Below the pieces are notes generated by a model, which saw nothing but the letters and a program-made list of their open reading frames with translations, made no database searches and was not told where the DNA came from. Positions 3,680 to 11,572 of a stretch of 64,000 bases of DNA are shown here, one piece after another (the first letter of the stretch is position 1; each line of letters opens with the position of its first letter). Made by a program: the position numbers and the translations under genes. Location: contig JAQBOA010000064.1 of the NCBI GenBank assembly GCA_028288305.1, forward strand, positions 38,826-102,825. The letters run 5' to 3'. This DNA comes from Mucilaginibacter sp. Lineage in GTDB: Bacteria > Bacteroidota > Bacteroidia > Sphingobacteriales > Sphingobacteriaceae.

Positions 3680-4042
3680 TCAAAACTGTTTTCTTGGCCG
3701 CTTTTTTTTGATCTCCCCGCCCCTTTCTACTTTTGAATAAGATGATTGTGATGAAAAAGTTCTCTTAAATTGGGGTGAAGCCTTTTTAACCGGAGTTTGC
3801 TTTTCTTCCGTTATTTTCACACTTAATAACCGTTCACCAATAAATGAGCCATCAAGGGCTTCAACGGCACGAGCTGCCCCTTCCTCATCTTTCATCTCCA
3901 AAAAGGCGTAACCCTTACAATTACCGGTCTTCTTATCCCTGACGATTTTGATTGTGCTTACATCACCATGTGAACCAAAGAGCATAACAAGCTCCAATTC
4001 CGTAATATCCATGGGAAAGCCCCCAACAAATAATTTGATCAT
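3680..4042 (-). CDS. RRM-domain RNA-binding protein
   Basis: KLFVGGFPMDITE (RNP2) and KGYAFLEM (RNP1); basic C-terminal tail. Confidence 0.93.
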   Translation of the reverse strand: MIKLFVGGFPMDITELELVMLFGSHGDVSTIKIVRDKKTGNCKGYAFLEMKDEEGAARAVEALDGSFIGERLLSVKITEEKQTPVKKASPQFKRTFSSQSSYSKVERGGEIKKKRPRKQF

Positions 4043-4807: not shown

Positions 4808-5242
4808 TTATAAATTTTTAAATATGTTTCCTAAATTCCCGCTACCGCCATTTTCGGATAAGTCAGCGCTGACGCTTTCAGGTGTTAAACTGCGGTCATT
4901 GGGATTACTGGTTTTATGTGCAAATTTTTGTAATAAGCCGGGCAAAGCTGCAGAAATAGCTCCGGTGGCTGCCGGTGGCAAACCAAACTTACTGGCTAAG
5001 CTCGATATCAGACCGCCTTCAATCAGATTAACAACCGGATGGCCTGATGTTACTTCGCTTTTAAGCGAGGAAATAAGACTGTCTGTTCCGCCCAATGTTT
5101 CAGCTTGATTTTTTAACCCATTGGTAATATGAGCGGCAATTTCCTGGTGCACTGCGTCTGCACTTTCCACTGGAATAGAATTTGTCAGCTGCGGATTATT
5201 GCCTAAATGGTCTTTGACAATTTGTAAAATTTGATCGAACAT
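4808..5242 (-). CDS. DUF937-like hypothetical protein
   Basis: 144 aa Gly/Ala/Leu-rich ORF 7 bp upstream of the YtxH gene, same strand; family assignment tentative. Confidence 0.6.
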
Positions 5243-5490
5243 TATAACTGATTTTATAAAATAACCAACAAGCTATTTTAAATTTAGTTTTTAAAATATT
5301 ATTTATTAAATAATAAATTTAATTATTATAACATTTATTGCTGAAAACAAGTAATAAAAGTGATATACTAATACATAAACAATTGATACGCACTTTTTTG
5401 CGGTCTGCAGAAAGTACTTGTTTTTAAGGGCTAAAACGTTGAGAAATAAAAAACGCCGCAACTAAGAAAAATAATATTCGTATAAAACAC

Positions 5491-5562
5491 ACATTGAGCG
5501 CCCTGCTCATCAATAATTTATCAAATCAAAGAATTCCCCGGCGCGAGGCAGGGGATTTTTTT
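5491..5562 (+). promoter_or_regulatory. Candidate structured RNA ending in a + strand terminator with alternative pairing
   Basis: TCCCC(5535-5539)...GGGGA(5551-5555) followed by T7; upstream CCCTGCTC (5501-5508) can pair with GAG-G-CAGGG (5545-5553), and GCGCC (5498-5502) with GGCGC (5540-5544). Confidence 0.35.
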
Positions 5563-5666
5563 ATGACTTTTTTATATTTTTTATAAAAAAAACAACTTTA
5601 TATCTTTTAATACCGTATAAATAATAAGTTTAGTTTTTAGTTTAATGTTAATAAAAATTGGTTAGG

Positions 5667-5700
5667 CAGCCGGGAAGATATTTTCCGGCTGTTTTGTTTT
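5667..5700 (+). terminator. Putative + strand terminator
   Basis: CAGCCGG-gaagatatttt-CCGGCTG followed by TTTTGTTTT. Confidence 0.55.
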
Positions 5701-5721
5701 AAATCCGGATTTTGGGGCCTT

Positions 5722-6369
5722 TTAAACTAAAACCTCAGCAATCTCTGCAAAGCCCTTTTCCCTTGCCAGATCAGCAGGGAGCTTACCACCTTCCATACGG
5801 ATGTTTACATCAGCGCCATGTGATAATAGCAGGATCAGCAAATCGATATTTCCGTTTTGAGCTGCTGAATGCAAGGCAGTTGCGCCTGCTTGTTGTTTTA
5901 CATTAACATCAGCGTTATTTTCCATCAGCATACTGGCAATATCGGTATAATTACCTGCAGCGGCAGAGTGCAAAGGGTATACTTGAAAGCCATTGTTTGA
6001 CGGCATATTAACATCTGCCCCTTTTGATACCAGGTAACGGGCAATTTCATAATGGCCAAAGTAGCACGCTAATCCTAAAGGTGTAAAGCCATCTTCAGAA
6101 TAGAAATTTATCGCCTCAGGGTGGGCATAAACAAGATTGGCAACTGTATCAAATTCCCCCGCCGCTGATGCTTCAAAAAGATTGATCTCGTCCAGGTATT
6201 TTAATAATAGCGCTGTAACTTCAGGTTTTTTATAATAACAAGAAAGCATAAGTGGTGAAACTTGCTGACTGGTACGACTTTTTGTAAGTGTAGGATCTTG
6301 CTTTAGCAAAGAATCCAAATTGCTAAGATCGCCCGTTGTAATGTACAGCTCCAGTTTTTCAACACTCAT
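5722..6369 (-). CDS. Ankyrin repeat protein
   Basis: Repeats DGFTPLGLACYFGHYEIARYLVSKGADVN, GATALHSAAQNGNIDLLILLLSHGADVN. Confidence 0.93.
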   Translation of the reverse strand: MSVEKLELYITTGDLSNLDSLLKQDPTLTKSRTSQQVSPLMLSCYYKKPEVTALLLKYLDEINLFEASAAGEFDTVANLVYAHPEAINFYSEDGFTPLGLACYFGHYEIARYLVSKGADVNMPSNNGFQVYPLHSAAAGNYTDIASMLMENNADVNVKQQAGATALHSAAQNGNIDLLILLLSHGADVNIRMEGGKLPADLAREKGFAEIAEVLV

Positions 6370-6539: not shown

Positions 6540-9104
6540 ATGCCGGTAAAGGGAAATCAGTTTAAATCAAATAGTTTCAAGCAAGAAGATCAGCCCCGTC
6601 AGTCTTCTTCAAAACTTGAAAGAGAACGAACAGCAAAACAAAAGCAAGCAGATCTGCGCCCTTTTGAGTTTAAATATAGTCGATTAATTAAAATATCAGG
6701 CTTATTTTTTCTGTTGTTATCAGTATATTTTCTCATAGCATTTACTTCCTACCTGTTTACCTGGCAGGAAGATCAAAGCTATGTTTCAGCAGCAAACGGT
6801 GGATGGGGCAACTTATTTAAAACCACCCGGGAGCTGATGGATAATGGGGTTAAAAACCCTGTTGTTGAAAATTGGGCAGGTAAATTAGGTGCTTTACTTT
6901 CAAATCAATTTATTTTTGAATGGTTTGGGCTGGCATCATTTACTTTTGTTTTTGTTTTTTTTATCGTTGGATACCGGTTGCTATTTCGTATCAGGCTGTT
7001 CCCGGTTAACAAAGCACTGGCTTATTCCTTTTTCTTTTTGATATTTTTTTCTGTTGCCATAGGTTTTTTCCATGCTTTTATAGTAGATACGCCTAATTAC
7101 CTTGAGGGTGAGTTTGGATATTGGAGCAATCGTTTGCTTGATGCACAAATAGGCCAGTCTGGTACTGGCGGTATTTTAATTTTTGCCGCGCTTACTATAT
7201 TGATCATTGCTTATAATATTGATTTTAAACTGCCGCAACGAAAGGTTAGTACCGTAGCTTCGGGCGCTGTGGGTGATATTGTTCCGGTTCCTGTTGACCA
7301 TGAAAATGAAGAGGATTCGTTGCCACTTGAATGGTCTGGTCGTACAAATAAAGATAATCTAGTAAATACAATTAAACCCGGCTTATCTAAAGAACGGCCG
7401 TTGGAACAAAATCCAATATTTCATGAACCTGTAATATTAACACCTGACCCTGAGAGTAATGATTATGAACCAGGAAATGAAAACGGAATTCCTTTAACAA
7501 TTGGTGTTACCAGGCCTACCTCTGTTTTAAATATCGAAAAAAGTGATGATGATAAGGCTAAAAGTTTGCTCGAACAGTTTGGAACTTATGACCATACGCT
7601 TGAACTCGCATCCTATAAATACCCAACCCTCGACTTGCTTGAAAATTATGGTTCGAACAAGATAAACGTTAATTCGGATGAGCTGGGGGCTAATAAAAAC
7701 AAAATAGTTGAAACACTCAACCATTATAATATTGAGATCGATAAAATTAAGGCAACTATTGGCCCCACGGTTACCCTCTATGAAATTATTCCTGCGCCGG
7801 GTGTGCGTATATCCAAGATCAAAAACCTGGAGGATGATATAGCATTGAGTTTAGCGGCCTTAGGTATCCGTATTATTGCCCCTATGCCGGGAAAGGGTAC
7901 TATAGGTATTGAAGTGCCTAATCAAAACCCCGAGATGGTTTCTATGCGTTCAGTGCTTTCTACCGAAAAATACCAAAATACTACTATGGATCTGCCCATC
8001 GCACTTGGCAAAACCATTAGTAACGAAGTATTTATTGCCGACCTGGCTAAAATGCCGCATTTGCTGGTTGCAGGGGCTACAGGTCAGGGTAAATCGGTTG
8101 GTATAAATGCCATACTTGTTTCTTTGCTTTATAAGAAACACCCTTCTGAACTCAAATTTGTTCTGGTGGATCCTAAAAAAGTAGAGTTAACCCTTTTCCG
8201 TAAGATAGAAAGACACTTCCTCGCCAAATTGCCCGATGAGGCTGATGCTATTATAACCGACACCAAAAAAGTAGTAAACACGCTTAATTCTTTATGTATT
8301 GAGATGGACCAGCGGTACGACCTGCTTAAAGACGCGCAAGTACGGAACCTTAAAGAGTACAATCAAAAATTTGTAAACCGTAAAATAAGCAATCCTGAAA
8401 AACATAGGTACCTGCCTTTTATTGTACTGGTAATTGATGAGTTTGCCGACCTGATGATGACCGCAGGTAAGGAAGTAGAGATGCCTATAGCACGTATTGC
8501 GCAGTTGGCTCGTGCGGTGGGTATACACCTTGTAATTGCTACGCAAAGGCCTTCAGTTAATATTATTACCGGTACTATAAAAGCTAACTTCCCTTCAAGG
8601 CTGGCTTTTAGGGTATTGTCGAAAATAGATTCGCGTACGATACTTGATACGGGGGGCGCCGATCAGCTGATAGGCCGGGGGGATATGCTGCTTTCAACAG
8701 GCAGCGACCTGATACGGCTTCAATGCGCGTTTGTGGATACACATGAGGTGGAAAGAATTTCAGATTTTATTGGCAACCAACGGGGTTATCCTTCAGCTAT
8801 GCTGCTGCCTGAATATGTGGGCGAAGGTGAAACCAGCAGCTCAAAAGAATATGATCCTGATAACCGCGATCCGATGTTTGAAGAAGCTGCACGCCTGATT
8901 GTAATGCATCAGCAAGGTTCCACTTCATTGATACAACGTAAAATGAAATTAGGCTACAACCGCGCAGGCAGAATTATTGACCAGTTGGAAGCAGCAGGCA
9001 TAGTTGGCCCGTTTGAAGGCAGTAAAGCTCGCGAAGTTTTATACCCTGATGAATATAGCCTTGAAAGGCACCTTGAAGCGCTTCAAAAACAAAGCAGCAA
9101 TTAA
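6540..9104 (+). CDS. ftsK: DNA translocase FtsK/SpoIIIE family
   Basis: N-terminal TM segments; HLLVAGATGQGKSVGIN Walker A; VLVIDEFADLMM Walker B; C-terminal gamma winged-helix QQGSTSLIQRKMKLGYNRAGRIIDQLE. Confidence 0.97.
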   Translation: MPVKGNQFKSNSFKQEDQPRQSSSKLERERTAKQKQADLRPFEFKYSRLIKISGLFFLLLSVYFLIAFTSYLFTWQEDQSYVSAANGGWGNLFKTTRELMDNGVKNPVVENWAGKLGALLSNQFIFEWFGLASFTFVFVFFIVGYRLLFRIRLFPVNKALAYSFFFLIFFSVAIGFFHAFIVDTPNYLEGEFGYWSNRLLDAQIGQSGTGGILIFAALTILIIAYNIDFKLPQRKVSTVASGAVGDIVPVPVDHENEEDSLPLEWSGRTNKDNLVNTIKPGLSKERPLEQNPIFHEPVILTPDPESNDYEPGNENGIPLTIGVTRPTSVLNIEKSDDDKAKSLLEQFGTYDHTLELASYKYPTLDLLENYGSNKINVNSDELGANKNKIVETLNHYNIEIDKIKATIGPTVTLYEIIPAPGVRISKIKNLEDDIALSLAALGIRIIAPMPGKGTIGIEVPNQNPEMVSMRSVLSTEKYQNTTMDLPIALGKTISNEVFIADLAKMPHLLVAGATGQGKSVGINAILVSLLYKKHPSELKFVLVDPKKVELTLFRKIERHFLAKLPDEADAIITDTKKVVNTLNSLCIEMDQRYDLLKDAQVRNLKEYNQKFVNRKISNPEKHRYLPFIVLVIDEFADLMMTAGKEVEMPIARIAQLARAVGIHLVIATQRPSVNIITGTIKANFPSRLAFRVLSKIDSRTILDTGGADQLIGRGDMLLSTGSDLIRLQCAFVDTHEVERISDFIGNQRGYPSAMLLPEYVGEGETSSSKEYDPDNRDPMFEEAARLIVMHQQGSTSLIQRKMKLGYNRAGRIIDQLEAAGIVGPFEGSKAREVLYPDEYSLERHLEALQKQSSN

Positions 9105-11299: not shown

Positions 11300-11572
11300 T
11301 AATATATAAAGTAAAGGAGAATTAACTGAATAATAATGAATAGAATTCCTTTGAAACGGGAATATAGTTTTTAGAACTCATTTATCATTATAATTATAAA
11401 AAATACAACATCGCAACAATCTAATTAATTAATACGAAAATCATATAAAAAAGGTTATGATTTATAACCTATTTACAAGCCTGGTAAATAAACTATTACT
11501 TAAATGAAACTAATTAAAAAAGGCACCGTATAAATGTTCTGGTTTATGTGTGTAAACTTTAATCTGCTTAAA

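Follow-up and report, generated by a model that had tools for sequence, protein, structure and literature searches.

A hairpin with a run of T, the usual sign of transcription termination, raises a simple question when it lies where no gene on its strand appears to end. The window analysed here is a stretch of 64,000 nt from Mucilaginibacter sp. (contig JAQBOA010000064.1, positions 38,826 to 102,825). It contains a gap of 479 bp (5243-5721) that is bordered by a DUF937 gene and an ankyrin-repeat gene. Both of these lie on the minus strand, as the initial annotation had it. On the plus strand of this gap CCCC (5536-5539), GGCGCGAGGCA (5540-5550), GGGG (5551-5554) and seven T (5556-5562) can be read directly, so the CCCC...GGGG hairpin with its T7 run is where the annotation had placed it (5536-5562). 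The annotation saw the architecture of an attenuator or antiterminator, or else of a structured small RNA that would be non-coding or antisense. In our view the hairpin is probably the 3' end of an independently transcribed, trans-acting predicted small RNA (sRNA) of about 73 nt, under the control of an alternative sigma factor.

Structure of the predicted small RNA

The sequence establishes the promoter-like motif, the parts of the RNA, their conservation and the presence of a single copy in the genome of the window:

5460-5485, plus strand: P1, promoter-like motif AAC-N16-CGTATAA before small RNA 1
5490-5562, plus strand: small RNA 1, predicted, about 73 nt, with an invariant 36-nt 5' part in 21 loci and a conserved terminator
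5495-5509, plus strand: hairpin 1, UGAGC-GCCCU-GCUCA, 5 bp, invariant, the minimum-energy hairpin
5510-5527, plus strand: A/U-rich unpaired linker, invariant, which together with A5509 makes up the 19-mer ATCAATAATTTATCAAATC that recurs at a second locus
5528-5562, plus strand: Rho-independent terminator with invariant loop GCGAG and T7 tail, showing compensatory changes and the same fold in relatives

The 5' end is placed by the promoter motif and by the point at which sequence identity begins. All 12 distinct sequences that were folded gave one and the same minimum-energy structure of three parts, namely hairpin 1, a single-stranded linker and the terminator. The fold of 5490-5562 was better than that of dinucleotide shuffles (z -2.6; 3 of 200 shuffles equally good). 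The wider stretch 5390-5562 was unremarkable by comparison (z -1.2; 20 of 200 equally good), and position 5401, from which the structure had been thought to extend, is therefore not a natural start. It is too early, as the promoter-like block is conserved from about 5457 and the RNA from about 5490.

Covariation across related genomes, which had been proposed as a check on the structure, was found in the terminator stem, where three pairs showed changes on both sides. The covariation score was reached by 2 of 500 shuffles and slid alignments scored far lower; for bulged sequences (e.g. L065, L067, L069 and L073) the 3' arm was aligned one position out of register, which should lower the count. 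A G+C-rich hairpin followed by a T-run has been maintained by compensatory changes, as expected of an sRNA with Rho-independent termination. Hairpin 1 is uninformative in this respect and has no covariation support because it does not vary.

Conservation and distribution

When 100 genomes of the genus were searched at the DNA level, the block from about 5444 to 5564, or most of it, was recovered in about 15 of them at 79-93% identity. In a sample of 401 genomes of the family a 25-base core, searched with up to 2 mismatches, was present in 14, and every match was exact. All of the carriers belonged to Mucilaginibacter (about 105 genomes sampled) and none to other genera (about 295 genomes). The core lay on 20 named contigs, including those of M. 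frigoritolerans, M. flavidus and M. phenanthrenivorans; three records were labelled Bacteroidetes only. Neither mismatch-tolerant searches nor a covariance model search found diverged copies: in 251 genomes of the family the covariance model gave at most 34 bits outside the clade (E 0.01-0.05), which we took as chance.

Throughout 21 loci the 36 nt CATTGAGCGCCCTGCTCATCAATAATTTATCAAATC were invariant letter for letter, although the loci had been gathered by an exact 25-mer, which biases the comparison towards identity inside that 25-mer. Mean identity elsewhere was 63% in the promoter block, 57% just upstream, and 76% in the ankyrin coding sequence, with 50% at its third codon positions. The ankyrin gene, often together with FtsK, was retained downstream in most loci. 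Three loci (L058, L059 and L061) had different neighbour genes, yet their 36 nt were identical to the rest. Judged from these comparisons, conservation is confined to the predicted transcript and its promoter, within one Mucilaginibacter clade. It is stronger evidence than the folding score that the putative RNA gene is not a product of chance.

A promoter-like motif shared with signalling genes

The motif AAC-N16/17-CGTAT preceded small RNA 1 at a fixed distance in all 21 loci. At the level of sequence the predicted RNA has a promoter of its own. The fixed distance, the conservation and the compensatory changes in the terminator support that part of the initial annotation which spoke of a structured, non-coding small RNA. 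The shape of the motif resembles that of promoters of extracytoplasmic function (ECF) sigma factors. A scan with the sigma-70 consensus gave promoter-like sites at chance level only.

The strict pattern TAACnTT-N13-15-CGTATAA was scanned in eight genomes, with the same pattern reversed as control. It gave 28 listed sites, five at the sRNA locus and 23 elsewhere. The raw number barely exceeded that of the control (28 vs 21), so the evidence lies in where the sites are. Intergenic positions accounted for 21 of the 23 other sites but for only one of 21 in the control; 16 of the 23 were intergenic and had, no more than 200 nt downstream, the ATG of a frame encoding 120 aa or more, again against one of 21. 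Among the genes behind the sites are some for receiver-domain proteins, which have orthologues in four genomes, and others for a PAS protein, histidine kinases, a sigma-54 activator and Cupin_8 proteins. Two more copies of the AAC/CGTAT motif occur in the window, at 11456-11428 (minus strand) and 11508-11535 (plus strand). They face apart, between a MASE11-PAS sensor gene (minus strand) and a gene for a small secreted protein (plus strand).

A second locus carrying the linker sequence

The linker 19-mer recurs at a second place, with the same orientation, in 8 of the 16 carrier genomes; no exact match turned up in 95 genomes without the sRNA. This co-occurrence may reflect shared history, both elements being limited to the clade. 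The second place is a conserved non-coding element of about 250-350 nt (L027:1495-1850 and matching stretches in L023-L026, L028, L035 and L142). It opens with the 19-mer, an ATCAA-N6-ATCAA direct repeat, and continues with a conserved hairpin of small size, GCAATAACAATGC. The element adjoins oxidoreductase, S8-peptidase-like or surface-protein genes and was seen only in genomes that carry the sRNA.

A further likeness to the 5' part of the sRNA, an imperfect one, occurs in L029, L030, L031, L032, L040 and L041 behind a gene ending in ...EALAC*. This stretch is antisense to that gene, and some of the genomes concerned are without the sRNA.

Comparison with known RNAs

No credible Rfam match was obtained for 5490-5562 at gathering or at permissive thresholds (E up to 10). 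No known family, the 6S-type RNAs suggested in the annotation included, matched at threshold. 6S RNA is roughly 180 nt long. Small RNA 1 resembles 6S and 6S-Flavo RNA in being intergenic and non-coding, but at about 73 nt it is without the long closing stem and central bubble; with neither such a fold nor a match to either family, a 6S identity was rejected. MicA and RybB are sigma-E-dependent sRNAs of enterobacteria, controlled by an ECF sigma factor and ending in Rho-independent terminators. The likeness to them extends to a small RNA with such a terminator and a proposed ECF sigma factor; there is no relation in sequence.

Among the sRNAs of Bacteroidota, GibS and FopS are those that small RNA 1 would resemble in its mode of action, but it is not a member of their group by model score, architecture or promoter type. 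Both are sRNAs of Bacteroides thetaiotaomicron; FopS base-pairs at regions where translation starts, is a ligand of the RRM protein RbpB and has canonical sigma-ABfr promoters (PMC11697453). Even with E values of up to 10 allowed, the FopS family (Rfam RF04319) did not come up for 5490-5562. FopS has an unpaired 5' seed and then a terminator, whereas small RNA 1 has an invariant hairpin ahead of its unpaired linker; it is present in one copy against 14 for FopS, and its promoter is of another type. On these comparisons we call it an sRNA family that has not been described before and is confined to a single clade within one genus.

Possible function and alternative explanations

From the elements described above we infer that the RNA is expressed under the control of an ECF-type sigma factor and acts in trans, either by pairing or by binding a protein. 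An alternative sigma factor of this type, whose other targets would be mainly signalling genes, might switch on the RNA in response to some stress or surface signal. The 36 invariant nt would then base-pair with several mRNAs through the loop GCCCU, the linker or both, possibly assisted by an RNA-binding protein, for instance one of the RRM proteins that these bacteria have. Pairing would alter the translation of the target mRNAs.

Several points weigh against this proposal. Hairpin 1 never varies among relatives, so covariation lends it no support. No conserved antisense target was found for the one 20-nt stretch that was searched: matches to the complement of this 20-mer (up to 3 mismatches, 10 genomes) fell mostly within coding frames, one orthologous pair among them, and not one lay on a convincing translation start. 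Finally, among 30 ECF sigma genes examined in two genomes none carried the motif convincingly upstream, so that no autoregulated sigma factor came to light.

The 36 nt might instead act on a protein, by titration or modulation, or imitate another RNA, without pairing to any mRNA. Their invariance exceeds the usual length of a seed and includes a stem, the 19-mer recurs at the second conserved locus, and an RRM protein is encoded nearby. However, there is no match to 6S or any other family of protein-binding RNAs, and the recurrence of the 19-mer is open to the explanation from clade history given above. We regard a protein-binding or decoy RNA as unlikely. It might also be thought that two plus-strand terminators in tandem, placed between the promoters and the convergent ankyrin gene, shield that gene from plus-strand transcription, in an antisense or insulator role. 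The 36 nt are identical even where the neighbour genes differ, as in the three loci named above, and insulation does not require an invariant 5' part, which makes this role improbable. A short open frame with a TTG start at 5494 exists in the window and in some relatives. A very small coding gene is nevertheless highly improbable and was rejected: there is no synonymous variation across the 36 nt, and length changes of one and two bases 3' of them shift the frame (L064, L065).

The attenuator or antiterminator leader is now hardly credible. The complementary segments on which it was built are indeed there: CCCTGCTC (5501-5508) and GCGCC (5498-5502) on the 5' side could pair with GAGGCAGGG (5545-5553) and GGCGC (5540-5544) inside the terminator. 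The alternative duplex is strong in the window alone (-13.8 kcal/mol). In relatives it falls to about -9 to -12 kcal/mol, against -11 to -17 for the terminator plus -6 for hairpin 1, and it is always weaker than the two local hairpins summed (L068 was left out of this scoring). The terminator sequence changes while its supposed partner stays fixed. Nor is there a plus-strand gene to control: a second terminator follows, and the next plus-strand gene, FtsK, starts at 6540, beyond that terminator and the convergent gene. It is because the duplex decays in relatives and no plus-strand gene lies downstream that we reject attenuation.

To return to the trans-acting sRNA, a more specific version of it can be put forward as a speculation of low probability. 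The RNA could serve as the riboregulatory arm of a so far undescribed signalling regulon of Mucilaginibacter that depends on an alternative sigma factor, with the strict promoter pattern common to receiver-domain, PAS, kinase and Cupin_8 genes. Its 36 nt would carry a site, also present at the second conserved locus, at which a dedicated RNA-binding partner would bind.

The downstream unit and neighbouring genes

The remaining features of the gap and its borders are as follows:

5594-5620, plus strand: P2, second copy of the motif, AAC-N17-CGTATAA, recognisable in many relatives but not in all
5627-5700, plus strand: possible small RNA 2, ending in a terminator at 5664-5694 with a T-rich tail (terminator scan)
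4808-5242, minus strand: gene for a DUF937 protein, one border of the gap
5722-6369, minus strand: gene for an ankyrin-repeat protein, the other border, convergent to the plus-strand RNA

A second small RNA from the promoter-terminator unit at about 5594-5700 is possible but not established. Its terminator can be recognised in many relatives, where both arms of the aligned stem have undergone changes. The unit is less conserved than the first, with a variable body and a terminator that has been lost in some relatives. The stretch 5628-5703 scored 18.7 bits with the FopS model against a cut-off of 56, a weak score for which the terminator by itself is probably responsible.

A gene for an RRM-1 RNA-binding protein (3680-4042, minus strand) lies at a distance of about 1.4 kb; in Bacteroides, proteins of this type bind sRNAs. 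L073 likewise has an RRM gene near the sRNA. Close to the sRNA locus of L068, the stretch L068:2575-2609 (minus strand) matches the Rfam DUF805b RNA (RF02914) with 48.5 bits.

Significance

A brief literature search found no paper on small RNAs of Mucilaginibacter, and small RNAs of Bacteroidota beyond the gut have been little studied. The locus teaches that a hairpin, when only one genome is looked at, can wrongly suggest an attenuator. Thirty-six invariant bases, behind a promoter motif that also precedes two-component genes, would offer a definite starting point for work on a stress or signalling regulon of a common soil genus.
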